A stretch of 64,000 nt of DNA from assembly GCA_945868085.1 (NCBI GenBank), contig CAMBKF010000004.1, forward strand, positions 30,679-94,678. Direction: 5' to 3'. Under the pieces are notes generated by a model, which had not been told where the DNA came from, made no database searches, and saw nothing but the letters and a program-made list of their open reading frames with translations. This DNA is from an uncultured Oscillibacter sp. Lineage in GTDB: Bacteria; Bacillota; Clostridia; Oscillospirales; Oscillospiraceae. Made by a program: the position numbers and the translations under genes. Below are positions 23,774 through 62,332 of the stretch, one piece after another. The number at the start of each line of letters is the position of its first letter. The stretch's first letter is position 1.

Positions 23774-23813
23774 AAAATACCCCTCTGCCTGCGCACAGGC
23801 AGAGGGGTATTTT
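23774..23813. terminator. bidirectional terminator
   Basis: AAAATACCCCTCTGCCTGcgcaCAGGCAGAGGGGTATTTT between convergent genes. Confidence 0.9.
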
Positions 23814-23837: not shown

Positions 23838-24953
23838 TTATAGAATCACCAGCTTATGGCCGCATTTTTTCTGCAGGACCTCGGCCACGTCCTGGCTGAG
23901 CGCATCCAGGGGCGCCCCGTTAAGGGAGTGGATCTCCAGCCGGCAGGCCCGCTTCCCTGTGCAGAGGCCGGTTATCAGGTCCATAAAGGCCTCCGCTATG
24001 CGCACCATGGGCACGGAAGCAGGCGCCTGAGCGGGCAGGATGGGCTGGAAATAGGCCAGGTCCGAGAGCTGCTGCTCCGTCAGGTAGTCGCTCCAGGTGA
24101 TCTTGCCGCTTTGGCAAAGCGCCTTCAGCACCTGGGACATCCAGCCGCCGGGGAGAGAGGGAATGGTGCAGACCTCCAGGCGCAGCACCCGTTCCTCCGC
24201 GTCCTTGGTTTTCTGCAGATGGAACTGCCTGCTCAGCTCCTGCAGCTCCGGAGAGGGCTCGGCTCCCACATCCCGCACCAGGCGGCTGTAGAACGTCTGA
24301 TAATACTGCGCGGCATCCCGCCAGGCGCTCCGCCGGATCAGGATCTCCAGGCGGATCCGGGCAATGTCCTCGTTATAAGGGTCAATCTCCTCGCAGGCGG
24401 ACATGAACTGCAGGCAGTCGTCATCCAGCGCGTTTTCATAGGTCAGCCGGATCAGCCGGTGGTAGACCACCAGCTTCCGGTTTTCCAGATAGTACCGGCG
24501 CTGGATGATATACTCCAGGAAATTTTCACAGTTATGCAGGCTGCAATTTTCAAAGAAGTCGCCCCGGAACAGGGACAGCAGACGCTTCAGCTCCGCGATG
24601 GAGTCCATGGCCTCCAGCTGGGCCTGCTCGATCTCGGATATATCGCACAGGAAGCTGAAGCTGGGATTGACCCGGATGAGGTCCTTGGACACCAGCAGGA
24701 ACGACTCGCCATCCGCCTGCACGAGGGTCTTCTTGATCTGCCAGAGATTGAAGCGCAGGTTGTATTTGGCGGCGTCATCGCTGCTCTCGCTCCAAAGAAA
24801 GCTGATGATGTCGCTGCGGCGCATCTGCCGGGTCTCCTTCATCAGGACCAGGGCGATGATGGCCGCCGCCTTGCCGCTGAGCTGGTCACTGACATCCAGG
24901 CCGTCCAGCAGGAAGCGGGGTCCACCCATAAATGTAATATACAACATACTCAT
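23838..24953 (-). CDS. BTAD-domain (SARP-like) transcriptional regulator
   Basis: N-terminal winged-helix-like region, then TPR/BTAD pattern (YYLENRKLVVYHRLIRLTYENALDDDCLQFMSACEEIDPYNEDIARIRLEILIRRSAWRDAAQYYQTFYSRLVRDVGAEPSPEL). Confidence 0.8.
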   Translation of the reverse strand: MSMLYITFMGGPRFLLDGLDVSDQLSGKAAAIIALVLMKETRQMRRSDIISFLWSESSDDAAKYNLRFNLWQIKKTLVQADGESFLLVSKDLIRVNPSFSFLCDISEIEQAQLEAMDSIAELKRLLSLFRGDFFENCSLHNCENFLEYIIQRRYYLENRKLVVYHRLIRLTYENALDDDCLQFMSACEEIDPYNEDIARIRLEILIRRSAWRDAAQYYQTFYSRLVRDVGAEPSPELQELSRQFHLQKTKDAEERVLRLEVCTIPSLPGGWMSQVLKALCQSGKITWSDYLTEQQLSDLAYFQPILPAQAPASVPMVRIAEAFMDLITGLCTGKRACRLEIHSLNGAPLDALSQDVAEVLQKKCGHKLVIL

Positions 24954-26494
24954 GCATTCCGGTCAAATACGACCCGTCCGTCTTTGATGGTCATATCCAC
25001 TTGAACGTCCTTCAGCTGCCGGGGATCCATCTGCGTTATATCCCGGTCCAGGATCACAATGTCGGCGTCCTTCCCCTCCCGGAGGCTCCCCTTTTTCTTT
25101 TCCAGGAACAGGGCATAGGCTCCGTGGCTGGTGTACATCTCCAGCGCCTCCTGCAGCGTTACGCCGTTGGCGGCAACGGGATGATTGACCGCATAGTGGA
25201 TGCCCTGGAAGGGATCGGGGCTGGTGATGGGCGGGTCCGAGCCGCCGCAGACGGTAATGCCGCTGTCGATGATCCGGCGGAAGCGGTTGGTGGTGCCGTA
25301 GTGGGTGCCCAGGCGCTGCTGGTACATGCCGCCGGGATAGCCCCACAGCCCCTCATAGGCGGGCTGCATGCACAAAATGACGCCCAGGCGGGCGGCCCGC
25401 TGCATCTGCGCGGGGGTGATGAGCTCCGCATGCTCGATGCGGTGGCGCATGGCGCCCACGTCATAATGATCCGCGGCGGCCTCCAGGGCCTGGAGCACCG
25501 CCTCGATGGCGGCGTCGCCGATGGCGTCAAAGCCGATCTGCAGGTCGTGTCGGCAGCACTCCATGGTAAACTGCGTCAGCGCGTCCTGGGTCATGTAGAT
25601 CCACCCCTTGCGGTGGGGGGCATCGGCATATTCAAAGGACAGGGCCGCCGTCCGGCCGCCCATGGTGCCGTCGATATACAGGGCGCCGCCGATGCGCTTG
25701 AGGCCGTGCTGCAGGGCGCGCTTATACTCCGTGGTCTGATAAAACAGCTCTATAGTCAGAGGATAGCGGTCCTTATAGCGCACCAAAAATTCGCTGGTGC
25801 GCAGGGGGCTCTGCTCCGCCTGGGCGCCCCGGCACTCCATGGCGGCCACGGTGGTCAGGCCATAGGAAAAGGCCATGTCCACCACCCGGGAGGCAGCGGT
25901 ATCGAAATCATCGTAGGAATAGGCGTCCAGCACGTTACTCTCCAGCCGGTTTTCCGCCTGGTTGGTAAAGACCCCCGTGGGGATGCCGCTGTCATCCGTA
26001 TGGATGCCCGGCAGAGTGAAGGGGATCTTGTAGTACAGGATGCCCACGGTATTGAGGATGATGGTGTGATAGTCCAGGGAGAAGATCAGCACCGGCTTAT
26101 CGGCACAGTAGCGGTCCAGGACCTTGCGGTCCGGAAGGGTCTTTTCCTCCAGGCGGCTGCTGTCCAGCCGATAGGCGGTGATGACGCTGCGGTTGGCCGC
26201 CTCCCGCCGGAGAATCTGCCCGATCTCGTCATAATTGCGCACATGGGACAGGTCCACATACCCGTACTCCAGGCCAATACGTACCACCTGAAAGTGGTTG
26301 TCAATAAACCCCGGCAACACCGTCCGGCCCTTGGCGTCAATGGTCTGCACGGTGCCGGAGATATACTCCGGGTCGCACTTCCCCACGCCCAGGCGGGCGA
26401 TCTTGCCGCCCTGGGTCAAAAGCCAGTCGGCCCGCAGATCCCCGTCCATGCAGAGGATCTTTCCGTTTTTGATGAGAAGATCTCGTTGATCCAT
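24950..26494 (-). CDS. amidohydrolase family protein (YtcJ-like)
   Basis: GRTVLPGFIDNHFQVVRIG; IGFDAIGDAAIEAVLQALE; HRIEHAELI; CGGSDPPITSPDPFQGIHYAV. Confidence 0.88.
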   Translation of the reverse strand: MDQRDLLIKNGKILCMDGDLRADWLLTQGGKIARLGVGKCDPEYISGTVQTIDAKGRTVLPGFIDNHFQVVRIGLEYGYVDLSHVRNYDEIGQILRREAANRSVITAYRLDSSRLEEKTLPDRKVLDRYCADKPVLIFSLDYHTIILNTVGILYYKIPFTLPGIHTDDSGIPTGVFTNQAENRLESNVLDAYSYDDFDTAASRVVDMAFSYGLTTVAAMECRGAQAEQSPLRTSEFLVRYKDRYPLTIELFYQTTEYKRALQHGLKRIGGALYIDGTMGGRTAALSFEYADAPHRKGWIYMTQDALTQFTMECCRHDLQIGFDAIGDAAIEAVLQALEAAADHYDVGAMRHRIEHAELITPAQMQRAARLGVILCMQPAYEGLWGYPGGMYQQRLGTHYGTTNRFRRIIDSGITVCGGSDPPITSPDPFQGIHYAVNHPVAANGVTLQEALEMYTSHGAYALFLEKKKGSLREGKDADIVILDRDITQMDPRQLKDVQVDMTIKDGRVVFDRNA

Positions 26495-26566
26495 TGCATT
26501 CGCTCCCATCTTGCAGTGTTCTTTATAGACCGAAGTATAGCAGACTCAGCCCGGAAAAGGAAGCCT

Positions 26567-27577
26567 TTATTCCGCCGAGGCGATGAAGGCGGCCATGGGC
26601 GCCAGGAAATCCGCATCCGTCAGCTCCGCCGCCAGGTCATAGCACAGAGAGCGGCCGTTGTCACTGTTGGTGATGACCACCAGGCCGTCCCCCGTCTGCT
26701 GGTCCCACAGGGCCAGGGACTTGAAGCCGTCATTATCGCCCCAGTGCCACCGGACGGAAGGCTGGTTCCGTACGAGGCCCACGCCCAGGCCCCAGGCGAT
26801 GCTGTCATCCGCCGCATTCTGCGCAGCGGTCATCTGCCCATAGGTCTCCTCCGTCAGGCCGCCCCGGGTGCGGAGCAGGGCGGAGACAAACCGGGCGTAA
26901 TCCGCCGCGTTGGAGTACAGGGACCAGGCAGCATTGGGCTCCGGGGCGTTGCCGGTGAGGTCCACGCAGTCCCGCACGCGGCAGGGGCTGCCCTGGGCGT
27001 TAAAGCCCGGGGAAATGACGCGGCCCACCTCCGGCGTCCAGAGGACGGCGGAGCGGCGCATCTGAAAGGGCGTGAAAATATGGGCAGCGAACAGCTCCGG
27101 GAGGGACTGCCCCGTAATCTTTTCCGCCAAATGCTGCAGCAGGTAATAGCCCTGGCCGGAATAGCTGTAGGCCGTGCCCGGGGCGAAAAGCATGGGCATA
27201 GGGCGGCTGTGCCAGTCCGGCAGGCCGGAGCCGTGGCTGAGGATGTGGCGGGGGGTAATCTTCGTGAAATTCGGGTCATGGGACCAGGGCTCGCCCCCCA
27301 GGCGGCCGGGCACCGGCTCATCCAGGGCCAGCAGGCCCTCATCCGCCAATTGCAGGGCCAGCACGGCAAACAGGGGCTTTGTCAGGGACGCGCACTCAAA
27401 GAGGGTGTCCTCTGTCACCGGGGCGGCACCGGCCGTACCGCTGACGATGGAAAAGGTTATCTCGCCCCCCTGCAGCAGGGCCATGCTGCACCCGGGCACG
27501 CCCCGGCGGGCCATCCGGCGGGAAAGCTCCTCCGGGTCCCCGCAGAAGCACTTTGCTTTTTCCTTTATAATTTGCAT
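26567..27577 (-). CDS. serine hydrolase, beta-lactamase/class C family
   Basis: FECASLTKPLFAVL (SxxK); YSYSGQGYYLLQHLAEKITGQ (YxN-like YSG); HWGDNDGFKS. Confidence 0.88.
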   Translation of the reverse strand: MQIIKEKAKCFCGDPEELSRRMARRGVPGCSMALLQGGEITFSIVSGTAGAAPVTEDTLFECASLTKPLFAVLALQLADEGLLALDEPVPGRLGGEPWSHDPNFTKITPRHILSHGSGLPDWHSRPMPMLFAPGTAYSYSGQGYYLLQHLAEKITGQSLPELFAAHIFTPFQMRRSAVLWTPEVGRVISPGFNAQGSPCRVRDCVDLTGNAPEPNAAWSLYSNAADYARFVSALLRTRGGLTEETYGQMTAAQNAADDSIAWGLGVGLVRNQPSVRWHWGDNDGFKSLALWDQQTGDGLVVITNSDNGRSLCYDLAAELTDADFLAPMAAFIASAE

Positions 27578-27587
27578 AGGATCCCCC

Positions 27588-28292
27588 TCACATTTTTTTC
27601 ACAGGATAGCCCGCATAGGACACGGCGGCTTCGGCCAGGATCTGCGTGGGGTCCGCCACGGGATAGGGCAGGTCGCACTGGGCGAACACAATGGGCAGCT
27701 CCGTGCAGCCCAGGACGAAGCGCTCTGCCCCCCGGGCCGTCATGTCATCCAGGGTGCGGCGCAGAGCCGGCACGTCGATGGCATCTATGCTCCCGGCCTT
27801 GACCCCATCATAAATGGCGGACATGACCCGGCGCTGGCCGGGGGCATCGGGCTTGATGACCCGGATGCCCCGACCGGTGAGGAGCTTTTCATAGATGCCG
27901 GTCTGAATGGTGCCGTCCGTCGCCAGAAGGCCCACGGCCCGGACGCCCTCCCGCTCCAGGCGGTCCGCCGTCAGGCGCAGCATGTGCAGCACCGGCAGGC
28001 GGGTCTGCAGGCAGAGGTCGTCGTAAAACCAGTGGGCCGTGTTGCAGGGCATGACCAGGACGTCGGCCCCGGCAGCCTCCAGGGCGTGGGCCGAACGAGC
28101 CAGCTGGGGCACCGGGTCCTCACCGCCGCCGAGAATGGCCGCCGTGCGGTCGGGAATATCCGTGTTGCAGTCCACAATAACGTGGGGAAAGTCCTGGTCC
28201 CGGGCGGCGTCGGTGGCGCGGATGATCTTTTCAAACAGGTCCGCCGTGGCCAGAGGGCCCATGCCGCCGATGATACCGATAATCTTTTTCAC
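27588..28292 (-). CDS. aspartate/glutamate racemase family protein
   Basis: IGIIGGMGPLATADLFEKI; VMPCNTAHWFYDDL; FVLGCTELPIVF. Confidence 0.92.
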   Translation of the reverse strand: MKKIIGIIGGMGPLATADLFEKIIRATDAARDQDFPHVIVDCNTDIPDRTAAILGGGEDPVPQLARSAHALEAAGADVLVMPCNTAHWFYDDLCLQTRLPVLHMLRLTADRLEREGVRAVGLLATDGTIQTGIYEKLLTGRGIRVIKPDAPGQRRVMSAIYDGVKAGSIDAIDVPALRRTLDDMTARGAERFVLGCTELPIVFAQCDLPYPVADPTQILAEAAVSYAGYPVKKM

Positions 28293-28306
28293 AGCCGGTC
28301 CCCTTC

Positions 28307-29353
28307 TTACTTTTCGGATTTTTTCTCGGGCATGTAGAGGTCGGCCAGGCTCTTATAGTGGCTGCCGGCCCGACCCGTGACGGCATTGGCATGGAGCATG
28401 GAGCTGATGATGGCCTCGTCCACGCTCTCGATGGCGGCCCGGAATACCTCGTCAATATCCTCCTCGTACACCAGGCGGATGGATTCCAGCCGGTCGCTGC
28501 TGTAATGGGCCAGCTTGTTGCCGGTGGTGAAGGCCAGGGCAATTTCACCGCTGCCGTTGCCGGAGATGCCGCCGGTGCGGGCAATGCCGGACTGGGCGCG
28601 TTTTGCCACACGCTCCAGCTGCCGGGCAGACAGGGGCACATCCGTAGCGATGACGACGATGATGCTGCCCTTATCCTTTTGCTCGGCCTCCTGCCAGAAC
28701 AGCCGCTCGCCCACGGGGTCTCCCGCGACCCGGAGGTCCCGGAGAGTGCCGAAATTGGTCATGACCAGGGCGCCGACGGTATAGGTCTCGCCATAGAGTC
28801 GGCACAGCCGGGAGGCAGAACCGATGCCGCCCTTGAGGGAATAGCACACCATGCCCGCGCCGGCACCCACATCGCCCTCGGCAAAGGTCTCCGCCGCCGC
28901 GTCCAGAGCCGCACGGGCGTGCTCCTTGGTGACGTGCAGGCCCCGGATGTCGCTGAGCCGGGCGTCATTGCACTCCATGACCAGGGAATTGACGGTGCCG
29001 GCGTCCAGCCCGATGTCGTCGTTCCGCTCCAGCATGTACTCTACCAAAGCCGTGGCGACCGTGCCCACGGACAGGGTATTGGTCAGCAGGATGGGAGTCT
29101 CCAGGGTACCCAGTTCCTGCACCTGGACCAGGCCGATGCTCTTGCCGAAGCCGTTTATCACATGGGCACCGGCCAGGCACTTCTCGTGAAATACATCACC
29201 CGGATGGGGGATGATGGCAGTGACGCCGGTGTGTACCTCGCCGTCGTGGAGCGTCACATGGCCCACACGCACCCCCGGCACATCCGTGATCAGGTTGCGG
29301 GGCCCATGCTCCATGTAACCAAACTTCAGACCGTATTTGCTCTCTACGCCCAT
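28307..29353 (-). CDS. P1 family peptidase (DmpA/BapA-like)
   Basis: NLITDVPGVRVGHVTL; ASRLCRLYGETYTVGALVMTNFG; ARTGGISGNGSGEIALAFTTGN around the autocleavage-type Gly-Ser site. Confidence 0.9.
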   Translation of the reverse strand: MGVESKYGLKFGYMEHGPRNLITDVPGVRVGHVTLHDGEVHTGVTAIIPHPGDVFHEKCLAGAHVINGFGKSIGLVQVQELGTLETPILLTNTLSVGTVATALVEYMLERNDDIGLDAGTVNSLVMECNDARLSDIRGLHVTKEHARAALDAAAETFAEGDVGAGAGMVCYSLKGGIGSASRLCRLYGETYTVGALVMTNFGTLRDLRVAGDPVGERLFWQEAEQKDKGSIIVVIATDVPLSARQLERVAKRAQSGIARTGGISGNGSGEIALAFTTGNKLAHYSSDRLESIRLVYEEDIDEVFRAAIESVDEAIISSMLHANAVTGRAGSHYKSLADLYMPEKKSEK

Positions 29354-29486
29354 AATCGTATTCCTCCATGTTTGCCCGGGGCCACTGTGCTCCGGGCGAT
29401 ATTTGTGTGAAAAAAGGGCCGCCCGCTCAGGCTCGCGTAAGCGGACGCGCTGAAACGAGCGGCCTATATGTGTGATGTTTCGCGCT

Positions 29487-31109
29487 TCAGCGCTGATAGA
29501 CGACCTGGCCGCCCACGATGGTCATGACGGGCAGGATGTCCTTGATCTCCATAGGATCCACGGTGAAGATGTCCCGGTCCAGCAGGACCATGTCCGCGTA
29601 GTAGCCGGGCTTCAGGCGGCCCTTGACGTCCTCCTGGAACTCCGCATAGGCACTCTCCATAGTGTAGGCATCGATAGCCGTTTCCACATCCACGCACTCG
29701 CCGGGATAGAATCCGCCGGCAGGCCGGCCCTGCTTATCCTTGCGGGTGACCGCCATGTAGATATTGGGGAAGGGATTGCAGTCCTCCACAGGGCAGTCGG
29801 TGCCATAGGACAGGTGGACACCCATGCGCAGAAGGGTGCCGAAGGCGTAGGAAGTAGAAGCCAACTCCTTGCCGCAGAGCTTTTCCACGATGTTCATATC
29901 GTAGTCCAGGAAAATGGGCTGGGCAAACACCAGAATATCGTCCCTGGCGATGCGCTCCAGCAGGGCGCGGTCGGTGATCTGGCAGTGGACAACGGCGTGA
30001 CGGAGCTTATTCTTTCCGTCCACAAAGGCCCGCTCGTAGCACGCCACGGTGCGGCGCACGGCCTCGTCGCCGATGCAGTGGGTGACCACCTGCAAATTGT
30101 GCTCCCTGGCCAGCTGGCAGTAGCGGTCCATATCCGCCTCGGTGATCCACTCCAGACCGTGGTTACCCGGATCATCCACATAGCCATGGGACATGAGTCC
30201 CGTGCGGGCGCCCAGGCTGCCGTCCTTGAACAGCTTCAGAGGACCCAGCGTGAGCCAGGAGCCCTTCTTATACTCGCCCACGGCGTACTCGCCCCGGGTC
30301 AGGTAGTCCTCGAAATCCGCCAGGCTGTTGAAGCAGACCTGGTGGCGATAGCGGACCTTGCCCTCGCCGCTATTATAGATCTCATGCAGCAGCCGGAAGG
30401 CGGCGGGAGTATCCAGGAAGGTAGTGCCCACGTCGTTGCTCTGGACGCTGGTAAGGCCGTGGGAGACCGCATAGTCCATGGCGTCCAGCATGAAGGCATG
30501 GCGCTCGTCCATGGTGAAGTCCGGGATCAGGCGCTTGGCGATGTTGCAGCCGTTGCCGGTAAAGATGCCGGTGGGGATGCCGTTTTCATCGGTGAGGCAG
30601 TCCTGGCCCTTGCACTCATGGATCTCGCCGCTTTCCTGCAGCATCTCGATGAGCTTGGTATTGGTGGAGACGATATGGCCGCAGACACGCTCCAGGACGA
30701 TGGGATATTCGGTGCTGATCTTATCCAGGTCGTGCCGGTCGGGCAGGCGGTCGCTGTCCGTGAAATAGTCCTGGTTCCAGCCGATGGCGTGCAGGCCGTT
30801 TTTCACATGCCCGGGATGCCCGGCGGCGAACTTGCGGCAGACGTCGATCATCTCCTCAATGGATCTTACGTCGGCGATCTGGGCCTGGTTCAGCGTCTCG
30901 CTGAACTGGGCAAAGTGCAGGTGGGAGTCGTTGAGGCCGGGGATCATGGTGCGGCCGCCGCAGTCCACGCGGGTAGTGCCCGCGGGCGCGTCAGATAGCA
31001 GCTGCTCGCTGCTGCCCACCTGTCGGATGATGCCGTCCTCTACCAAAACAGCTTGCTCATAATGACCTTTTTCCACATAGACCTTGGCATTATAGTAGAG
31101 CTCAGCCAT
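29487..31109 (-). CDS. amidohydrolase family protein (YtcJ-like), second paralog
   Basis: GRTMIPGLNDSHLHFAQFSE; VVTHCIGDEAVRRTVACYE; HAVVHCQITD; YGTDCPVEDCNPFPNIYMAVTR. Confidence 0.9.
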   Translation of the reverse strand: MAELYYNAKVYVEKGHYEQAVLVEDGIIRQVGSSEQLLSDAPAGTTRVDCGGRTMIPGLNDSHLHFAQFSETLNQAQIADVRSIEEMIDVCRKFAAGHPGHVKNGLHAIGWNQDYFTDSDRLPDRHDLDKISTEYPIVLERVCGHIVSTNTKLIEMLQESGEIHECKGQDCLTDENGIPTGIFTGNGCNIAKRLIPDFTMDERHAFMLDAMDYAVSHGLTSVQSNDVGTTFLDTPAAFRLLHEIYNSGEGKVRYRHQVCFNSLADFEDYLTRGEYAVGEYKKGSWLTLGPLKLFKDGSLGARTGLMSHGYVDDPGNHGLEWITEADMDRYCQLAREHNLQVVTHCIGDEAVRRTVACYERAFVDGKNKLRHAVVHCQITDRALLERIARDDILVFAQPIFLDYDMNIVEKLCGKELASTSYAFGTLLRMGVHLSYGTDCPVEDCNPFPNIYMAVTRKDKQGRPAGGFYPGECVDVETAIDAYTMESAYAEFQEDVKGRLKPGYYADMVLLDRDIFTVDPMEIKDILPVMTIVGGQVVYQR

Positions 31110-32499
31110 TGTTTTCCTCCTTATTTTCCTTCTTCAGCTTTCGGTCAAAGATCCAGTAAACAATCGCGCCGAGGGCAGGCACGCTGAAACCGATGGAGCC
31201 CAGGATGGGATTCTCAATGGCGGAGTTGACAAACAGGGCCACGAACACGATGGCGGTGAAGATGATGGACACGGGATAGAGCCACACCTTGTAGGGGCGC
31301 TCGATGTTGGGGAACTTCTTGCGCAGGATGGGCACAGCCAGGACGATGAGGACGTTGAAGAGCATGTTGCTCAGCACCACCATGTCGGTCAGCTGGCTGA
31401 GGTTGCGCACCAGCACCAGAACGATGGAGATGACGGCCTGGACGATGATGGCCACATAGGGGGTCTTCTGCTTATTCAGCTTGGTAAAGCTCTGGAAGAA
31501 GTGGCCTTCCTTGGCCATGGCATAGTACATTCTGGGCTGGGCCAGGATCAGGCCGTTGAGGCTGCCGAACATGGCCAGGACCATACCCACGGTGACGATG
31601 ACAGCGCCTGCGCTGCCCAGCAGCTTCTTGGCAACGGCGGTACCCAAATACAGGTCGCCGGCACCGATCATGGAGACGATCTCCTCGTGGGGCAGGACCT
31701 TCATGATGGCGAAGTTAAAGAGCGTGTAGAGGATCGTCACGCCGCCAATACCGATGATAAGGGCCAGGGGCAGATTTTTGCGGGGGTTGCGCATTTCTTC
31801 TGCCACGGTGTTCAGATTGGTCCAGCCCTCATAGGCCCACAGGGAGGCCACAACGGCCAGGGCGATCATGCTGAAAACACTGGTGTTGTTCTCGGCGGCA
31901 TAGGTGCCGGCGGAAGCAAAGGACAGGTCGGGGGAAACGTGGCCGATAAACAGGGCGGCCAGCAGGATGATGGCCACGGGCACCAGCTTTGCCACCATGG
32001 AGATGTTCTGCACCACGGAAGCCAGCTTCACGCCCACCAGGTTATAGGCGGTGATGCCGATGATGAGCACGATGGCGGCGGCCTTGCAGCCAAAGTCGCT
32101 GATGTTCAGGATAGGCTGGAACACGCCCATCAGCGCCAGGGCCAGGGCGGCCACGGAGCCGGGGCCTGCAATGAGCCAATCCACAAAGCCGCACATAAAG
32201 CCCACGATGGGGTGATAAGCCTCATTCAGATAGACGATACGGCCGCCGGACTGGGGCATAGCCGCGCCCATTTCCGCGTAGGCCAGGCCGCCAAACAGGG
32301 AGATGACGCCGCCGATGATCCAGCACAGCAGCGCCAGGCCGCTGTTCATGCCCACGCGCTCCAGGACGTAGGCGCCCAGGTAGAAGATACCGGAGCCAAT
32401 CATGATACCAGCAATAATGCTAACACCACCAAAGGCACCTATTTCTCGCTTGAGTTCTGTTTTTTCTGTTGTCAAATCGTTGATAGTTTCTTTTTTCAT
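31102..32499 (-). CDS. APC-family amino acid permease (LAT-like)
   Basis: GGVSIIAGIMIGSGIFYLGAYVLERVGMNSGLALLCWIIGGVISLFGGLAYAEMGAAMPQSGG. Confidence 0.92.
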   Translation of the reverse strand: MKKETINDLTTEKTELKREIGAFGGVSIIAGIMIGSGIFYLGAYVLERVGMNSGLALLCWIIGGVISLFGGLAYAEMGAAMPQSGGRIVYLNEAYHPIVGFMCGFVDWLIAGPGSVAALALALMGVFQPILNISDFGCKAAAIVLIIGITAYNLVGVKLASVVQNISMVAKLVPVAIILLAALFIGHVSPDLSFASAGTYAAENNTSVFSMIALAVVASLWAYEGWTNLNTVAEEMRNPRKNLPLALIIGIGGVTILYTLFNFAIMKVLPHEEIVSMIGAGDLYLGTAVAKKLLGSAGAVIVTVGMVLAMFGSLNGLILAQPRMYYAMAKEGHFFQSFTKLNKQKTPYVAIIVQAVISIVLVLVRNLSQLTDMVVLSNMLFNVLIVLAVPILRKKFPNIERPYKVWLYPVSIIFTAIVFVALFVNSAIENPILGSIGFSVPALGAIVYWIFDRKLKKENKEENNG

Positions 32500-32691
32500 G
32501 GGATGCGCCTCCTTTTCTAGCTATAAAAATAGCCTGTATGTAAACTTATTGTAAAAAAAGCATGTGCAAGGAGGTGTTTATCTGAAATTTTTGTTTATTT
32601 TCCCATATAAACGGTTTTTTAAACCTGAGTAAAGCATAGCAGACTCCCGGCAAACTTTCAATTATAAAGTTTGCAGGGGAGCCGTCGGCAT

Positions 32692-32745
32692 TTGCGTAAA
32701 CAGCGCGTTTTGCGCAGATCTGCGCAAAACGCGCTGTTTACGCAA
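32692..32745. repeat. 54-bp perfect loop-less palindrome
   Basis: TTGCGTAAACAGCGCGTTTTGCGCAGA|TCTGCGCAAAACGCGCTGTTTACGCAA, exact reverse-complement halves. Confidence 0.97.
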
Positions 32746-42431: not shown

Positions 42432-43607
42432 TTATGGGCGGTTTTGTGCCGTCGGTCGTATCTTTTCCACAATGACGCACAGCAGCACCGTCAGCAGCAT
42501 ATCCGGCAGGGTGTAGCCCACAGGGGTATCCACGCTCATCAGCAGCCGGTAGGCGATGAAGCCCACGAGCCAGATCACCAGGTTCCGGCTGTCCGCCGCC
42601 ACGGCAAAGCGATCCCGCTTCAGCAGGAAGTGATCCGCGATCTGCACGGCGATCATGGGGGCAAACACGGAGCCGATCAGGTACAGGAAGTTGGTAATAT
42701 CGTCCATGGGGAAAATGATCGCCCCGGCCACGCCGATCACCGTCACGGCAATGGCAGTATTTTTCCCGTTGATCTTGCCGGACAGGGACTCGGCGGAGAT
42801 GCCGGCCGACCAGGCGTCCAGAAACGTGGTGGTGACGGTGGAGAACACCAGAATCACCAGCGCGGCGATGCCCAGGCCTGCCTTCACCATGATGGCGGCG
42901 ATGTCGTACTCCCCGGTGAAGATGGCCGCGCCCATGCCGATGACATACATCCAGCAGGACACCAGGCCATAGGTCACCACGCTGGCTACCGTGGCCCGGA
43001 CAGGCTTCTCCGCCTCGCGGGTATAGTCACTGATGAGCGGCAGCCAGGACAGGGGCATGGCCACCGCCAGCTCCACCGCCGCGCCGAAGGTCAGGCCTTC
43101 GCCGCTGGGGGCCGCCATGGTGTTGCCGGAGAAGAAGATCACCTTGCACAGCACCAGCGTCAGCACAAACAGCGCCGCCATGGTCACCTTGTTGATCCAG
43201 CCCAGGTCGGTGATGCCCACTACGATCCACAGCACGATCAGCCCGCCGATCACCAGGCACCACACCCAGCGGCCCACATTGAAGATGCCGCCGATGGCCA
43301 GCGCACCGTCATAGATCATGATGGCGGTCCAGCCCACCAGCTGCAAAACATTCAGCAGGGCAAACAGCAGGCCGCCCTTCTGCCCGAAGCTCATCTTCAC
43401 CGTCTCCATGGCACTGCGGCCGGTGCGGCCGCCGATCAGGCCCGCCAGCAGCATCATGGCGCAGCCGATGATGTGCCCGATAACGATGGCCAGCAGGCCC
43501 TTGCCCATGCCCAAAGGTGCGAAAGCCGTACCTGTCAGGATCTCTGCCAGGGATACGCCTGCCCCGAACCAGATCAGGGCGTTCTGAAAGGTCGATGTCT
43601 TTTTCAT
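42432..43607 (-). CDS. cytX: cytosine permease-family HMP transporter (CytX-like)
   Basis: NCS1-like TM pattern (WFGAGVSLAEILTGTAFAPLGMGKGLLAIVIGHIIGCAMMLLAG); stop overlaps thiD start in thiamin operon. Confidence 0.85.
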   Translation of the reverse strand: MKKTSTFQNALIWFGAGVSLAEILTGTAFAPLGMGKGLLAIVIGHIIGCAMMLLAGLIGGRTGRSAMETVKMSFGQKGGLLFALLNVLQLVGWTAIMIYDGALAIGGIFNVGRWVWCLVIGGLIVLWIVVGITDLGWINKVTMAALFVLTLVLCKVIFFSGNTMAAPSGEGLTFGAAVELAVAMPLSWLPLISDYTREAEKPVRATVASVVTYGLVSCWMYVIGMGAAIFTGEYDIAAIMVKAGLGIAALVILVFSTVTTTFLDAWSAGISAESLSGKINGKNTAIAVTVIGVAGAIIFPMDDITNFLYLIGSVFAPMIAVQIADHFLLKRDRFAVAADSRNLVIWLVGFIAYRLLMSVDTPVGYTLPDMLLTVLLCVIVEKIRPTAQNRP

Positions 43608-44401
43608 TCTACGAACTCTCCTTTCAGCGCAAACATGTGGTCCATGGGGCCGGAGCCCTTGCCCAGATCCAGCATAGCCGCCAGCGCGCCGGAGATGTAG
43701 GCCTTGGCCCGCTCCACCGCCGTGTCCAGATCATATCCCTTGGCAAGATTGGCGGCGATGGCGCTGGAGAGGGTGCAGCCGGTGCCATGGGTGTTGGGAT
43801 TGTCGATGCGCCTGCCCCGGAACCATTTCCCGCCGCCGTTGCGCCACAGCAGGTCGTCGGCGTCGTTGATCTGGTGGCCGCCCTTGCACAGCACGGCGCA
43901 GCCGTACTTGTCATGGATGATCCGGGCGGCGGTCTCCATGCCGGCGGCATCGGTGATGGTCACGCCGGACAGGATCTCCGCCTCGGGAATGTTGGGAGTC
44001 AGCACTTCCGCCAGGGGCAGAAGCTTTTCCGTCAGGGCCGACACGGCGTCGTCCTGCAGGAGCTTTGCCCCGGAGGTGGCCACCATCACGGGATCCACCA
44101 CGATGTGCTTTGCGCCGTACCCGCGGAGCTTGTCCGCGATGACGGCGATCAGCGCCGCGGAGGAGACCATGCCGATCTTCACCGCGTCGGGGAAAATGTC
44201 CGTAAAGACCGCGTCCAGCTGCTCCCCCAGAAAGTGGGGCGTGGACTCCAGAATGTCTGTGACGCCGGTGGTGTTCTGGGCCGTCAGGGCCGTGACCGCA
44301 CAGGTGGCGAATACGCCGTTGGCAGTCATGGTCTTGATGTCAGCCTGAATACCGGCGCCTCCGCTGGAATCACTTCCAGCAATGGTCAATGCTGTTCTCA
44401 T
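43604..44401 (-). CDS. thiD: hydroxymethylpyrimidine/phosphomethylpyrimidine kinase
   Basis: MRTALTIAGSDSSGGAGIQADIKTM; THGTGCTLSSAIAANLAKG. Confidence 0.95.
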   Translation of the reverse strand: MRTALTIAGSDSSGGAGIQADIKTMTANGVFATCAVTALTAQNTTGVTDILESTPHFLGEQLDAVFTDIFPDAVKIGMVSSAALIAVIADKLRGYGAKHIVVDPVMVATSGAKLLQDDAVSALTEKLLPLAEVLTPNIPEAEILSGVTITDAAGMETAARIIHDKYGCAVLCKGGHQINDADDLLWRNGGGKWFRGRRIDNPNTHGTGCTLSSAIAANLAKGYDLDTAVERAKAYISGALAAMLDLGKGSGPMDHMFALKGEFVE

Positions 44402-44503
44402 AATATTTGTCCTTTCTTTTTACAGCACAGTTTTTTAGCGCGATGCAAGGTGGTGCCCCCAATGCACCGCGTGAACACGGGGAAATCCCCGTTCGTTCCT
44501 GAT

Positions 44504-45163
44504 TCAATTGTCCAGTCTCTCCCAGGCGGCAGGGAATTCCGCCAGCGATGTGAGATAGACCTCCGCCGCATCCCGCAGGCCGGCTTGGTCCGACTCGCCG
44601 TTGGCGTCGTACAGACCCGCCGTGCGGTAGCCCGCCGCCTTGGCGGTACGCAGAGCATAGAGGGAATCCTCGCATACCAGCGTCTCTGCCGGAGCGGTAT
44701 GCAGCGCATCCGCCGCCAGATGGTAGATGTCCGGCTGATGCTTGCTCTTTCCCAGCTCGCCGGTGGTAAAAATAGCAGAAAGATAGCCCAGCAGGCCCAG
44801 CCGCTCCAGTGCCCGGGTCACATGGGTGCGCGGGCTGGAGGTGGCCGCCGCCATGGGGATGCCCCGGCTCTGCAGAAAGGCCAGTGTCTCCCCTGCTCCC
44901 GCCTTGGCGGGGACCTCATCATAATAGAAGTCCCGCAGCATAGTCTGAATTCCGCTTAAAATTTCCGTCTCGCTCAGCGGCAGCGGATAGTGGGCCTTCA
45001 GATAGGCGGCGCCCTGCTCCATGCTCATGGAAAACAGGATGGTGTTCAGCCCCGGCTCCGGCACAAGGCCCTGGCCGCGGAGATAGCGGGCTCCCAGATC
45101 ATTCCAGATGGCCATGGAGTCCAGCAGCACGCCGTCCAGGTCAAATATAACGCCGCGGATCAT
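44504..45163 (-). CDS. HAD-superfamily phosphatase (beta-PGM-like)
   Basis: GVIFDLDGVLLDSMAIW; AAATSSPRTHVTRALE; KHQPDIY; VCEDSLYALRTAKAAGY. Confidence 0.92.
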   Translation of the reverse strand: MIRGVIFDLDGVLLDSMAIWNDLGARYLRGQGLVPEPGLNTILFSMSMEQGAAYLKAHYPLPLSETEILSGIQTMLRDFYYDEVPAKAGAGETLAFLQSRGIPMAAATSSPRTHVTRALERLGLLGYLSAIFTTGELGKSKHQPDIYHLAADALHTAPAETLVCEDSLYALRTAKAAGYRTAGLYDANGESDQAGLRDAAEVYLTSLAEFPAAWERLDN

Positions 45164-45801
45164 GCTTTCAGCATCTCCTCTGTGGCTGCTTTCAGTTCCT
45201 GTGAGGCGGCCCGGATATCCGCCGCGCCGTAGATAGCGCTGATGACCGCCACGCCGCAGATACCGCTGCCCGCCAGGCGGGCCACATTGTCGCGGCTGAT
45301 GCCGCCGATGGCCACCACGGGAATGGACACAGCCTGGCAGATGGCCTTCAGCGTATCGTAGGACACGTCATCGGCGTCGGCCTTGGAACCGGTGGGAAAC
45401 ACCGCACCCACGCCCAGATAGTCCGCGCCGTGCTTCTCCGCCAGCAGCGCCTGCTCCACCGTCTGAGCGGAGACACCGATGATCTTGTCCGGCCCCAGCT
45501 TGGCCCGGACGTCCAGGGCTTCCATGTCACTCTGCCCCACGTGGACGCCGTCGGCGTTCATGGCCAGGGCAATGTCTACATTGTCGTTGACAATGAAGGG
45601 CACATGGTACGCCCGACACAGGGCCTGCAGCTCTTTAGCCTCCTGCAGAAAGGCGGGTTCTTCCAGCGTTTTTTCCCGCAGCTGCAGCATGGTCACGCCG
45701 CCCTCCAGGCTCTCCCGCACCACGTCTGTCAGGGTGCGGCCGTTGAGCCAATACCGGTCTGTCACCGCATACAGCAGCAGGTCCTTTTCAGCGCACTTCA
45801 T
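45160..45801 (-). CDS. thiE: thiamine phosphate synthase
   Basis: YAVTDRYWLNGRTLTDVVRESLEGGVTMLQLREKTLEE; VNDNVDIALAMNADGVHVGQSDM. Confidence 0.95.
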   Translation of the reverse strand: MKCAEKDLLLYAVTDRYWLNGRTLTDVVRESLEGGVTMLQLREKTLEEPAFLQEAKELQALCRAYHVPFIVNDNVDIALAMNADGVHVGQSDMEALDVRAKLGPDKIIGVSAQTVEQALLAEKHGADYLGVGAVFPTGSKADADDVSYDTLKAICQAVSIPVVAIGGISRDNVARLAGSGICGVAVISAIYGAADIRAASQELKAATEEMLKA

Positions 45802-46609
45802 ATTTGGCTCCCTTCTCCAGCACCGCACCGTCCATGTGGTAAATGGCGTCGATGATGCGGTTGCGGTAGGTGGAGTTGCCGTCGCTCTCCGTCATGTGGC
45901 TCCAGCCGATCTCACCGGCCAGACCCATGGCGCACACGGCGGCCGCGGCGGCCGTCAGCCTGTCGTCGGGGTTGGCCACCAGGAAGGCGGTCATCATGCC
46001 GGACAGCTGACAGCCGGTGCCGGTGACCTTCCCCATCTCCGCCCGGCCGTTGCGGATCACATAGCAGCGCTCGCCGTCGCTGACCAGGTCGATAGCCCCG
46101 GTCACCGCCACAATGGCCCGACTCTTTTGGGCAAAATCCTTCACAAATGCCACCGCCGCATCCAGATTGGACTCCGTCACCGCGTCGGCCACATCAGCGT
46201 CCACGCCCTTGGTAGTGCCGCTGCCCAGAGCCAGCGTCTTGATCTCGGAGATGTTGCCCCGGATCACGGTAAAAGGCAGAGCCTTCATCAGTTCCACGGC
46301 GGTATTGGTGCGCAGAGCGGAGGCACCGGCCCCCACAGGATCCAGCAGCAGCACATGACCCAATTCTGCCGCCTTTTTTCCGGCCCGGAACATCCCCTGG
46401 ATGCTGCGCTGGTTCAGGGTGCCGATGTTGATGTTCAGTCCGCCGCAGATGGTGGTGATGTCCTCCACGTCCTCCGGCTCGTCAGACATAATGGGACTGC
46501 CGCCGCAGGCCAGCAGAATGTTGGCCACATCGTTGACAGTGACATAGTTGGTGATGTTGTGTACCAGCGGCACAGTTCTGCGCACGTTGTCCAGACAGGT
46601 TCCCAGCAT
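45788..46609 (-). CDS. thiM: hydroxyethylthiazole kinase
   Basis: PLVHNITNYVTVNDVANILLACGGSPIMSDEPEDVEDI; VTGTGCQLSGMMTAFL; ATG 46609. Confidence 0.95.
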   Translation of the reverse strand: MLGTCLDNVRRTVPLVHNITNYVTVNDVANILLACGGSPIMSDEPEDVEDITTICGGLNINIGTLNQRSIQGMFRAGKKAAELGHVLLLDPVGAGASALRTNTAVELMKALPFTVIRGNISEIKTLALGSGTTKGVDADVADAVTESNLDAAVAFVKDFAQKSRAIVAVTGAIDLVSDGERCYVIRNGRAEMGKVTGTGCQLSGMMTAFLVANPDDRLTAAAAAVCAMGLAGEIGWSHMTESDGNSTYRNRIIDAIYHMDGAVLEKGAKYEVR

Positions 46610-46626
46610 AAAAACACTCCTTTTGC

Positions 46627-46675
46627 ATGCAAAAATGCGGATATGCCAATGAAAGCATATCCGCATTACGTATTT
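46627..46675 (-). terminator. terminator downstream of TPP aptamer (expression platform)
   Basis: Minus strand AATGCGGATATGCtttcattgGCATATCCGCATTTTT. Confidence 0.8.
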
Positions 46676-46690
46676 CACGCGCCGCGACGG

Positions 46691-52905: not shown

Positions 52906-53319
52906 ATGAGTGAAAACAAAGATAGATTGAATTTCCGGATGAAGCCGGAAACGGCGGAAAAGTTAGAGCACTGGTACAAGGCCGACCACTGCCGCAGTAG
53001 GAATGAGTTCGTGGAAAAGGCCGTGAACTACTACGCGGATGCGCTGGCGGCGGAGAACAGCACCACGCTGCCGGTGGCGATACAGACCGCCATCGACGGG
53101 CGGCTGAAGCTGCTGGAGGATCGCATGGCGTCCATCCTCTACAAGCAGACGGTTGAGATGGACATGGCAATCTCCATTCTGCTGCAAAGTGTCAATGTGG
53201 ACGAGTCCGTGCTGCGTCAGGAGCGTGCCAAGAGCGTCGCGGCGGTCAAGCACACCAATGGTCGTCTGCGCATGGAGCAAAAGCTCCGTGAGTTGGAGAA
53301 CGCGGAATGGCAAGGCTGA
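52906..53319 (+). CDS. ribbon-helix-helix (CopG-like) relaxosome accessory protein
   Basis: DRLNFRMKPETAEKLEHWYKADHCRSRNEFVEKAVNYYADALAAE; overlaps relaxase start. Confidence 0.8.
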   Translation: MSENKDRLNFRMKPETAEKLEHWYKADHCRSRNEFVEKAVNYYADALAAENSTTLPVAIQTAIDGRLKLLEDRMASILYKQTVEMDMAISILLQSVNVDESVLRQERAKSVAAVKHTNGRLRMEQKLRELENAEWQG

Positions 53320-55265
53320 TCGTCAAGAGCCCCTATATCAAGTGTGGCGGCGGGCAGAATGCAAGCGGGTATCTGAACTACATTGCCACCCGTGAGCGGG
53401 TAGAGATCGTGCCGGATGACCGTCCGCCTACACGCAAGCAGGAGCAGCTCATTCAAAAGCTGGTGAAAGATTTCCCCAACACGAAAGAACTTCTGGAGTA
53501 CAATGACTACACAAACGCCCCCACCAAAGCCAACGCATCGTCTTTCATCACGCTGACGCTGGAGCAGAACTGGAGCCGCGTGCAGTCTACCGAAGGCTAC
53601 GCTAAGTACATCGCCACCCGTCCCAGAGCCGAGCGGCTGGGCAGTCACGGCTTGTTTGGTGACGCGGATCATGTGTCGCTGGACACGGCCATGGACGAAC
53701 TGAGCCATTACACCGGCAATGTGTGGACGCACATTATATCCCTAAAGCGGGAAGATGCCATGCGGCTTGGCTATGACCATGCGGCAGCATGGCGGACGCT
53801 TCTGCGGGCGCACCGCAACGACATCGCCGCCGCTATGAACATTGACCCGAGGGACTTCCGCTGGTACGCGGCCTTCCATAATGAGGGCAATCATCCCCAT
53901 GTCCACATGATGGCGTGGTCGGCGAAGCCAGGGCAAGCGTACTTGGATAGGAATGGTATCAAAGAAATCAAATCAGTGCTGACCAACGAAATCTTTCAGC
54001 AAGAACTGCTGCATCTCTACGAGGAGAAAAGTGTCTCCCGTGACGAGTTGGTACATCAGACTCGGCAGGCTATGTTAGAGTTGGCGCAGCGTATGCGGGA
54101 TGGTCTCTGCATCTGCCCGACTGCGGAGCAAAAGCTCTGGGAGCTGTCACAGAAGCTGGATGACGTGCAGGGGAAGAAAGTGTATGGCTACCTGCCAAAG
54201 TCACTGAAGCAGTTGACGGATGATACGGTGGATGCCATGGCGAAGCTGCCCACGGTCAACAAGTGCTATCAAAAGTGGTGGGAGCTGCAATGTCAGCTCA
54301 ATGATTACTACTCGGAACAGCAGCGGCAGCGTCCGCCGCTGTCACAGCAAAAGGAGTTTCGGCAAATCAAGAATGCGGTCATCCGTGAGGCAGAGCATAT
54401 TCGCCAGGGCCGTATGTCCTTCGAGGACGCAGCCTTGGCGCAGGAGGACGAGCCGGTGGATGACCGCAGTATGTCTTATGACTGCTGGGAGCTGCGGAAA
54501 ATCATTGCTGACGAAAACATACCACTGGAGGAACGGGACCATGCTGCTGCGGAGCTGGAGCAAATCGCCTGTCAAGGCGACCCCCACGCCCAATACCTTA
54601 TGGGACTGCTGTTCCGTGATGGTGGATTGCTGGTGCCAGATGCAGAGCAGGCAAAACACTGGCTGGACGGGTCGGCACAAGAATTGCCTGACGCGCAGTA
54701 TGCCTTGGGGAAGCTGTACCTCTCGGACAATCCTGATATACACAATTCCGCGAAAGGTCTCTTCTGGCTGCAACAGGCGGCGGACAGCGGGCACGAGTAC
54801 GCCGCCTACCGTTTAGGCAAGGAGTATCTTACCGGAGAAAATATTTCAAAGGACACCACACGCTCAGCAGCGTACTTGAGACAGGCAGCAAAGCAAGCCA
54901 ACCCCTACGCGCAGTATCTGTTGGGAAAGCTATACCTCATGGGTGAGGGCGTTCCAAAAGATAAGGACGCCGCACAATATTGGTTTTCCGTGGCGGAGCG
55001 GAACAGCCACGCCTACGCCGGATATTTCCTTGACCGCATGGAGCGGCAGGAGGATTTGCCGCCGCCCAACATTCTGCTGTCCGCCACGCGGCTGCTGCAC
55101 CACATGGGCAATATCTTCAGAGACAACGCACCGCGTCCTGCAGCGCCCACAGGCGTTCAGATTGACCACAAGCGCCTGCAGCGCCTGCGGGAAAAGAAGA
55201 TGGCCCTGGGACACAAGTGGAATGACCATGAGGATGAGCAGAGCCACAACATGAGAGGGTTATAA
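53307..55265 (+). CDS. MobP-type (MobP3-like) relaxase with C-terminal Sel1-like repeats
   Basis: ASGYLNYIATRERVEIV N-terminus; FHNEGNHPHVHMMAWSA (HxH relaxase motif III); Sel1 repeats ALGKLYL...A..WLQQAADSGHEYAAYRLGKEYLTGE. Confidence 0.87.
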   Translation: MARLIVKSPYIKCGGGQNASGYLNYIATRERVEIVPDDRPPTRKQEQLIQKLVKDFPNTKELLEYNDYTNAPTKANASSFITLTLEQNWSRVQSTEGYAKYIATRPRAERLGSHGLFGDADHVSLDTAMDELSHYTGNVWTHIISLKREDAMRLGYDHAAAWRTLLRAHRNDIAAAMNIDPRDFRWYAAFHNEGNHPHVHMMAWSAKPGQAYLDRNGIKEIKSVLTNEIFQQELLHLYEEKSVSRDELVHQTRQAMLELAQRMRDGLCICPTAEQKLWELSQKLDDVQGKKVYGYLPKSLKQLTDDTVDAMAKLPTVNKCYQKWWELQCQLNDYYSEQQRQRPPLSQQKEFRQIKNAVIREAEHIRQGRMSFEDAALAQEDEPVDDRSMSYDCWELRKIIADENIPLEERDHAAAELEQIACQGDPHAQYLMGLLFRDGGLLVPDAEQAKHWLDGSAQELPDAQYALGKLYLSDNPDIHNSAKGLFWLQQAADSGHEYAAYRLGKEYLTGENISKDTTRSAAYLRQAAKQANPYAQYLLGKLYLMGEGVPKDKDAAQYWFSVAERNSHAYAGYFLDRMERQEDLPPPNILLSATRLLHHMGNIFRDNAPRPAAPTGVQIDHKRLQRLREKKMALGHKWNDHEDEQSHNMRGL

Positions 55266-55274
55266 CAGTCCATA

Positions 55275-55300
55275 TTCTGCGCTGCTGTAGACAATAAAAG
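55275..55300 (+). repeat. copy B of the TTTTGCGCTGCTGTAGACAATAAAAG motif
   Basis: ttctgcgctgctgtagacaataaaag, one mismatch to copy A. Confidence 0.85.
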
Positions 55301-55380
55301 AGCCTTTCAAAAAAGTAGTAGCTATTTGGGCAGCTTTGTGGTATGTATGTTTGCTAATAAAAAGCAAAGGAGCTGATTCA

Positions 55381-56535
55381 ATGGCCAAGAAACGCGCCAA
55401 CGGCGAGGGCAACATCCGCAAGCGCAAAGACGGCCGGTGGGAGGGCCGCTACACCGCTGGCTACAACCCCGAAACCGGCAAGCGCATCATCAAAAATGTC
55501 CTGGGCAAGACCCAGGCGGAGTGCAAGGCGAAGCTGGCCGCCGCCATGGAGGCCAGCAAGGGCGTCGATGTCAGCCGCGCAGATGAGTATACCGTGGCCA
55601 CATGGCTGCGGAGCTGGTACGACATCTACGCCAAGCCCAATGTGCGGGTGGCCACGGCTGACCGCTACCGCCTGATGATTGAGCAGTACGCCATTCCCCG
55701 CATCGGCAGCATTAAGCTCACAAAGCTGACTGCCCACGACCTGCAAAAGCTCTACAAGGAGCTGATGGAGAGCGGTCGCACCAACCGCAAAAGCGGGCAC
55801 GGCAATCCGGGTCTCAGCAGCACCACCGTCCGCAGCCTGCACTTGATGCTCCACAACGCATTGAACCGTGCCGTAAAAGAGCGCTTGATCCTCTGCAATC
55901 CCACCGGGGACTGCATCGCACCGAAGGTGCAGAAATTTGAAATGCAGATCCTCCAACCGGAACACATCAAAACTTACCTTGACGCCGCAGAGAAACGGGG
56001 ACTGCTGCCCATGTTTTATCTGGAACTGGTCAGCGGACTGCGCAAGGGTGAACTGACCGCCCTCCTGTGGAGTGACCTCGACATCACGGACAAAACCATC
56101 TCCGTCAGCAAGCAGTACGTCAAGAACCCCAATGGGGAGTTGACACTCTCGCGCCCCAAAACGGAGACATCGGTCAGAAAGGTCAGTATTCCACAGGAGG
56201 CTGTTGACCTGCTGGTTGCCGAACACAAGAAGCATCCCGACAACCCATATATGTTCCCATCGCCCGTCACAGGGGAGATGTATTACCCCGATTCCATTGT
56301 GAACCTGCATAAGAAAATTCTGAAAGACGCTGGACTGCCGCACATACGCTTTCACGACCTCAGACATACCTTCGCAACGCTGGCACTGCAAAACGGTGTG
56401 GATGTAAAAACCGTCAGCAGTATGCTGGGGCGCTACGATGCGGGGTTCACTCTCCGTACCTACACCCACGCCACCCGCCAGAAGCAGGACGAGGCCGCCC
56501 AGACCATGGGTAGCTTCATGGAACAGGTGATGTGA
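55381..56535 (+). CDS. int: tyrosine-type site-specific integrase
   Basis: GNIRKRKDGRWEGRYTAGYNPETGK N-terminal arm-binding domain; VSGLRKGEL, FHDLRHTFATLALQNG, TYTHAT; ATG 55381 after aaaggag. Confidence 0.95.
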   Translation: MAKKRANGEGNIRKRKDGRWEGRYTAGYNPETGKRIIKNVLGKTQAECKAKLAAAMEASKGVDVSRADEYTVATWLRSWYDIYAKPNVRVATADRYRLMIEQYAIPRIGSIKLTKLTAHDLQKLYKELMESGRTNRKSGHGNPGLSSTTVRSLHLMLHNALNRAVKERLILCNPTGDCIAPKVQKFEMQILQPEHIKTYLDAAEKRGLLPMFYLELVSGLRKGELTALLWSDLDITDKTISVSKQYVKNPNGELTLSRPKTETSVRKVSIPQEAVDLLVAEHKKHPDNPYMFPSPVTGEMYYPDSIVNLHKKILKDAGLPHIRFHDLRHTFATLALQNGVDVKTVSSMLGRYDAGFTLRTYTHATRQKQDEAAQTMGSFMEQVM

Positions 56536-60752: not shown

Positions 60753-60828
60753 ATCCTCCTATGGAACGAGGCAGGGACAGGCATCGTCCCTGCCTCACTT
60801 GTTATGATACGATTGGTTGGATTTCCGC

Positions 60829-62127: not shown

Positions 62128-62332
62128 AAATTATTTGCTTTTGCCTTTGTACCTTAAGTGTATCACTCTATGCTCAATATCTTCAATGACACGAAATCCA
62201 AAAAGGTCGTTCCCAAATTGTAGTTTTTACAACTCTGCCTGCCTTTGTAAATTCTTATGCCTGAAAATATTGCGCTAAAGTCTGAAAGTGGATATAATAA
62301 AAACAATATAATTAGAAACGGAGGGATCGCTT

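Follow-up and report, generated by a model that had tools for sequence, protein, structure and literature searches.

In the AmiC/AmiR system, a ligand-binding protein controls the regulator of an amide catabolic operon; AmiC has a periplasmic-binding-protein fold, and AmiR is an antiterminator. Two protein families also bear on the locus described here. Among the YtcJ-like amidohydrolases (COG1574, PF07969) is a Bilophila bile salt hydrolase (metalloBSH) that was inactivated by each of the Ala substitutions at H110, H112, K373, H441, H474, D583, and H196 (PMC13081902). The regulators of the SARP/BTAD type, such as AfsR and EmbR, include SARPs that bind direct repeats spaced 11 or 22 bp apart (PMC10936776). 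We analyzed a 64,000-nucleotide stretch of contig CAMBKF010000004.1 from a gut bacterium, an uncultured Oscillibacter sp. (the window), in which seven co-oriented minus-strand open reading frames (ORFs) at 23838-32499 encode an APC permease, a YtcJ-type amidohydrolase (AH1), an S58 peptidase, a racemase, an S12 serine hydrolase, a second YtcJ-fold protein (AH2), and a BTAD regulator. With a probability of roughly 0.45, we favor a reading in which the operon takes up and hydrolyzes amide-bonded amino-acid compounds under regulation, with AH2 controlling the BTAD activator.

RESULTS

Metal sites of AH1 and AH2

Both YtcJ-type proteins match Pfam Amidohydro_3 (AH1, 284 bits; AH2, 266 bits). The seven positions essential in the bile salt hydrolase comprise six metal-site residues and a carbonyl-polarizing His, and residues were matched by aligning sequences with 3ICJ, the protein against which the published study aligned its own enzyme. 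AH1 keeps all seven (H63, H65, K292, H344, H375, D438, and H145). The equivalent positions of the window AH2 are H72, Q74, A276, D328, H360, D425, and H148, so that three of the seven essential residues are gone (H→Q, K→A, and H→D); the AH2 of the relative G018 has E, A, and D at those three sites. The AlphaFold2 model of AH2 has a pLDDT (predicted local distance difference test) score of 93.4, with 3IGH and 3ICJ as its top PDB matches. Because its metal site is degenerate and its gene is tied to that of the BTAD regulator, it is possible that AH2 is not a hydrolase.

Among 52 BTAD-linked AH2 proteins (see below), the strand-5 His is missing in 32 (26 Tyr, 4 Asp, and 2 Ser), and it is kept in 21 of 21 unlinked relatives from the same order. 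Loss of the Lys alone was dropped as proof of AH2 inactivity, since unlinked relatives with Cys at this position keep all other ligands. In Emergencia, a further YtcJ protein encoded upstream of AH2 (L226, 5367-6998; L237, 5362-6996) lacks both the strand-5 His and the carbonyl-polarizing His.

AH2 is paired with a BTAD gene across Clostridia

Named genomes were scanned for AH2 only, using an alignment of ten AH2 sequences as the query; an earlier contig scan with the P0002 (AH2) sequence alone had returned no match. AH2 lies directly upstream of a same-strand BTAD gene in 52 nonredundant loci, 42 of them new from the AH2-only scan, usually with a spacing of no more than 45 bp and frequently with overlap. 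In a tree, the BTAD-linked AH2 proteins form one clade of 54 rows, with moderate support (89 in the Shimodaira-Hasegawa-like approximate likelihood ratio test, SH-aLRT). The two remaining rows of the clade are L195, where the contig ends, and Proteocatella L187, where the BTAD gene lies upstream on the opposite strand and the 363 bp downstream of AH2 hold no visible BTAD. Pairwise identities of AH2 and BTAD proteins were correlated (r = 0.92 over 36 loci), with a maximum of 0.19 in 20 shuffles.

The commonest other neighbors of the pair are genes for an NhaC-type antiporter (29/52) and an ArgE/DapE-type M20 peptidase (29/52). A further YtcJ-type gene stands immediately upstream of AH2 in 17 of the 52 loci, and some other loci carry AGCS or APC amino acid carriers. 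Two AH2-like genes stand in tandem ahead of BTAD in Anaerovirgula and Natronincola (L212 and L215). The available literature on BTAD proteins with amidohydrolases, or on amidohydrolase pseudoenzyme sensors, yielded no description of the AH2-BTAD pairing, which is not proof of absence.

The BTAD regulator and its predicted operator

The regulator P0001 matches PF03704 with 41 bits. Its AlphaFold2 model (pLDDT 94.5) was matched by Foldseek to AfsR (8K60 and 8HVR) and EmbR (2FEZ) over about 260 alignment columns, with E values of 1.8e-9 to 9.6e-8, and by its predicted structure it is a SARP-type regulator with a winged helix and a BTAD domain. The C-terminal part is a conserved alpha/beta domain, about 115 residues long, that none of the significant Foldseek hits matched.

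Direct GTTTA repeats with a 12-bp period precede the permease gene, and G018 has such a pair ahead of its operon too. The motif was first suggested by eye, at 12 bp, in four upstream regions. In a count of any 5-mer over 41 operon upstream regions, GTTTA at 11 bp ranked top by excess (7 loci versus 0.1 expected), with shuffled maxima over all words of 3 to 8, owing to recurring A/T-rich words. Exact GTTTA pairs at 11 to 12 bp occur in 12 of the 41 operon upstream regions versus 5 of 309 other upstream regions of the same loci (Fisher p = 5.5e-9, a somewhat flattering value because the motif had been partly noticed in the same data beforehand); about 10 of the 12 loci are independent, because two locus pairs share sequence beyond the repeats. 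Nine of the 12 pairs begin 119 to 139 bp ahead of the first gene, and pairs at any other spacing were found in at most two loci.

A perfect 54-bp palindrome (32692-32745; 27-bp arms with no loop) lies between the permease gene and a divergent gene at 32893. It was dropped as a shared operator, since the genome has a single copy and the region ahead of the G018 operon has none.

A composite operon built from two recurring units

The earlier note on this DNA had listed seven minus-strand genes, their families, and two start/stop overlaps, and ORFs and Pfam matches bear these out: the permease and AH1 genes overlap by 8 bp (31102-31109), and the AH2 and BTAD genes overlap by 4 bp (24950-24953). 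Its description of short gaps or overlaps throughout does not extend to the AH1-S58 gap (29354-29486), which at 133 bp is larger than the others. This gap holds two hairpins, one of them terminator-like; in G018, a strong hairpin without a T run occupies the equivalent position. Plus-strand genes border the operon on either side, and a terminator-like hairpin of 18 pairs marks its end (Table 1). The seven genes are likely carried on a single transcript; the claim goes no further because of the 133-bp gap with its hairpin.

TABLE 1 Features of the operon and its flanks, in window positions
Feature	Position	Strand	Match or detail
APC permease, P0007 (465 aa)	31102..32499	-	Pfam AA_permease_2
AH1, YtcJ-type amidohydrolase, P0006	29487..31109	-	Amidohydro_3
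S58 peptidase, P0005	28307..29353	-	Peptidase_S58
Asp/Glu-type racemase, P0004	27588..28292	-	Asp_Glu_race; GTG start
Class C (S12) serine hydrolase, P0003	26567..27577	-	Pfam Beta-lactamase
AH2, YtcJ-fold protein, P0002	24950..26509	-	Amidohydro_3
BTAD regulator, P0001	23838..24953	-	PF03704
Predicted operator	32576..32624	-	GTTTA at 32624-32620 and 32612-32608 (12-bp period), then TAAAC at 32597-32593 and 32580-32576
Terminator- or attenuator-like hairpin, AH1-S58 gap	29420..29447	-	T6 tail
Intrinsic terminator-like hairpin, end of operon	23774..23813	-	18 pairs, T-rich tail

The seven-gene set is rare; its parts are not. Of 99 relatives searched, only G018 carries the full set, with 72 to 93% identity, and the cluster is not a chance assembly, since G018 has the same order and strand. 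Within the genus, S58 genes were found in 3 of 32 genomes; across Clostridia, the figure is 27 of 391 genomes. Surroundings were read for 30 S58 loci, and in 12 of them S58 adjoins a P0004-type racemase gene (the window, G018, G030, G353, G206, G483, G326, G355, G272, G118, and G152, with G457 in another gene order); these loci span the GTDB families f1, f46, f27, and f96. Neighbors in some of them are an M55 D-aminopeptidase, a D-Ala-D-Ala ligase, and S12 hydrolases; others are a GntR/aminotransferase protein, a family 5 solute-binding protein and, in G355, an Amidohydro_3 gene. Emergencia (L167) and Hornefia (L168) have the order permease-AH1-AH2-BTAD with no S58 block, and identities to the Emergencia proteins are 74% (permease), 72.5% (AH1), 50% (AH2), and 40% (BTAD). 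Because both units recur and the core lacks the S58 block in these two genera, the window operon is a composite of a four-gene core and an S58-racemase-S12 set lying between AH1 and AH2. Conservation, which the earlier note had proposed as a check, thus holds for S58 plus racemase and for permease-AH1-AH2-BTAD, each of which recurs, and for the full set in G018 only; the note had counted neighborhoods in which the genes never occur together as evidence against its proposal, and the genes of each unit were found together elsewhere.

Permease, S58 peptidase, racemase, and S12 hydrolase

The permease matches AA_permease_2 with 224 bits. Its best NCBIfam model is TIGR00911 (L-type), at 235 bits under a cut-off of 701.8, and its nearest solved relatives in the PDB are xCT, LAT1, and BasC; it is therefore a predicted L-type (LAT/xCT/BasC-like) amino acid transporter of the APC superfamily that does not reach the TIGR00911 cut-off. 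P0005 matches PF03576 over its full length (399.9 bits versus a cut-off of 23.9), and its predicted nucleophile, Ser268 in NG-S268-GE, aligns with NN-S-GD of DmpA (1B65) and S-G-E of BapA (3N2W). We assign it to the S58 (DmpA/BapA type) aminopeptidases, with a putative specificity for N-terminal D- or beta-amino acids.

The racemase scores 239.4 bits on TIGR00035 (cut-off, 93.1) and keeps both catalytic Cys residues (C83 and C196). It also scores 243.5 on the CuyB model NF052483 (cut-off, 190). As a control, the Pyrococcus aspartate racemase scored 250.9 on the same model; because the model fails to separate aspartate racemases, P0004 cannot be called CuyB, and a cysteate racemase identity was dropped. 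The S12 protein (Pfam Beta-lactamase, 157 bits) has PDB matches among DD-peptidases, alkaline D-peptidase, and D-amino acid amidase, and it carries SLTK at 64 and HWG at 278, which fit the SxxK and K/HxG motifs of class C serine hydrolases, and YSG at 139, where YxN is expected.

Other loci in the window

Reading of ORFs elsewhere in the window showed, at 53307-56535, a protein that resembles relaxases and has Sel1-type repeats, with an integrase-like ORF after it, which suggests a mobile element; an apparent thiamine salvage cluster (ThiM-, ThiE-, and ThiD-like proteins plus a permease) at 42432-46678; and a second APC permease, an iron-type alcohol dehydrogenase, a pyridoxal phosphate enzyme, and a divergent PucR-like regulator at 58298-63571.

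DISCUSSION

In the mechanism that we propose, the LAT-type permease would import amide-bonded compounds, possibly short peptides or N-acyl amino acids. AH1 would cut their amide bonds, joined in this lineage by the S12 and S58 enzymes, and the racemase would invert an acidic amino acid for entry into catabolism. AH2 would bind an amide substrate or product and thereby control the BTAD protein, which would activate transcription at the direct GTTTA repeats that precede the permease gene. Judging from gene linkage and residue loss, a sensor that informs the BTAD activator is the likeliest role of AH2. We infer the substrate, the DNA binding of the BTAD protein, and the direction of regulation. 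The earlier note had read the locus as a salvage system for noncanonical amides or peptides (of D-, beta-, or N-acyl amino acids), and an operon that salvages amide-bonded amino-acid compounds stays plausible; the note had missed the degenerate AH2 metal site and its tie to BTAD, the composite nature of the operon, and the rarity of the seven-gene set.

Several observations weigh against this mechanism. Most of the 41 upstream regions lack an exact GTTTA pair, and a distance of 8 bp separates the 3' repeat from the −10 element in published SARP promoters, the operator here being predicted from its repeats. Joint inheritance alone would also yield the correlation between AH2 and BTAD identities, no AH2-BTAD fusion was seen among the 52 loci, and the hairpin between AH1 and S58 may split the transcript. 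Finally, 8 of the 52 BTAD-linked AH2 proteins retain every metal His and Asp, and a K→C change is common to the AH2 clade and its unlinked relatives; the clade is thus not uniformly dead, and some members may be enzymes.

Those eight proteins, together with several non-BTAD relatives that have Cys for Lys and keep all His residues, fit a plain peptide/amide catabolic operon, in which AH2, like AH1, is an enzyme, its site being altered (mononuclear, or with different ligands), while BTAD is a linked activator that makes no contact with AH2. The window AH2 itself retains H72, H148, H360, and D425 in a well-predicted fold. However, three residues individually essential in a characterized YtcJ enzyme are gone from it, it is only 50% identical to its Emergencia and Hornefia counterparts versus 72% for AH1, and AH2 is near-obligately paired with one regulator family. 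We consider this explanation somewhat unlikely.

A further explanation would make the operon specific for the salvage of D-amino-acid peptides from peptidoglycan. Relatives of the S58-racemase pair adjoin M55 D-aminopeptidase, D-Ala-D-Ala ligase, S12 hydrolases, and the family 5 solute-binding protein, and because of the first three of these neighbors D-amino-acid handling, one of the options in the earlier note, is favored for the S58 block; this support is contextual and does not come from the window itself. The window operon lacks the M55 and ligase genes, its racemase is of the Asp/Glu type, and the permease-AH1-AH2-BTAD core of Emergencia and Hornefia does without S58 and racemase, all of which leave peptidoglycan salvage doubtful.

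AH2 could instead be a noncatalytic structural or allosteric partner of AH1 rather than of the regulator. In favor of this arrangement, 17 of 52 loci have a second YtcJ gene immediately upstream of AH2, AH1 and AH2 stand in one operon in both the window and G018, and one report describes a precedent in the superfamily, a pseudo-dihydroorotase acting with aspartate transcarbamoylase (PMC7053772). Yet most of the 52 loci have no second amidohydrolase directly upstream while BTAD is still there, and AH2 divergence follows that of BTAD, so we judge a partnership with AH1 to be quite improbable. Cysteate or taurine-conjugate metabolism is the least credible alternative and very unlikely: although the racemase exceeds the CuyB cut-off and some bile salt hydrolases belong to the YtcJ family (PMC13081902), that cut-off is also exceeded by the Pyrococcus aspartate racemase, the seven genes include no sulfo-lyase, and AH1 has, by eye, a Cys two residues before H145, where the bile salt hydrolase has its sulfonate-binding Ser194.

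More tentative than control of BTAD by AH2 in the window operon is its extension to a widespread, undescribed two-gene module of Clostridia. In such a module, an amidohydrolase-fold pseudoenzyme would sense amides or peptides and switch a SARP-type activator; the latter, equipped with a C-terminal domain dedicated to this purpose, would control transporter-peptidase operons via direct GTTTA repeats at 11 to 12 bp. If so, SARP-type regulators outside actinomycetes would gain an input in the form of an enzyme-derived sensor, and dozens of clostridial transporter-peptidase operons, including those of amino-acid fermenters and gut commensals, would represent one regulon type. The analysis provides a concrete predicted operator and residue set for testing, and it cautions that YtcJ annotations include proteins without a catalytic metal site.

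Set against known systems, both AH1 and AH2 share fold and family with the YtcJ-like amidohydrolases, including the Bilophila enzyme; every metal-binding and catalytic position is conserved in AH1, while AH2, unlike them, is without three of the seven and forms a pair with a regulator gene. The P0005 peptidase shares full-length similarity and the position of its nucleophile Ser with the DmpA/BapA S58 aminopeptidases (closest solved relative, 2DRH), and it differs in its pairing with an Asp/Glu-type racemase. The regulator shares with AfsR and EmbR the predicted winged-helix and BTAD fold, along with candidate target sites in the form of 11- to 12-bp direct repeats upstream of the operon; here, no NOD/TPR or FHA effector domain was matched, a C-terminal alpha/beta domain takes that place, and the setting is an amidohydrolase-fold neighbor gene in a Clostridia host rather than antibiotic regulation. 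The pseudo-dihydroorotase of Pseudomonas aspartate transcarbamoylase is reported to be an inactive amidohydrolase-superfamily protein required by its partner, as proposed for AH2; its partner is an enzyme, whereas the candidate partner of AH2 is a transcription activator. The proposed AH2-BTAD logic is closest in kind to that of AmiC/AmiR, from which it differs in the fold of AmiC and the mechanism of AmiR.

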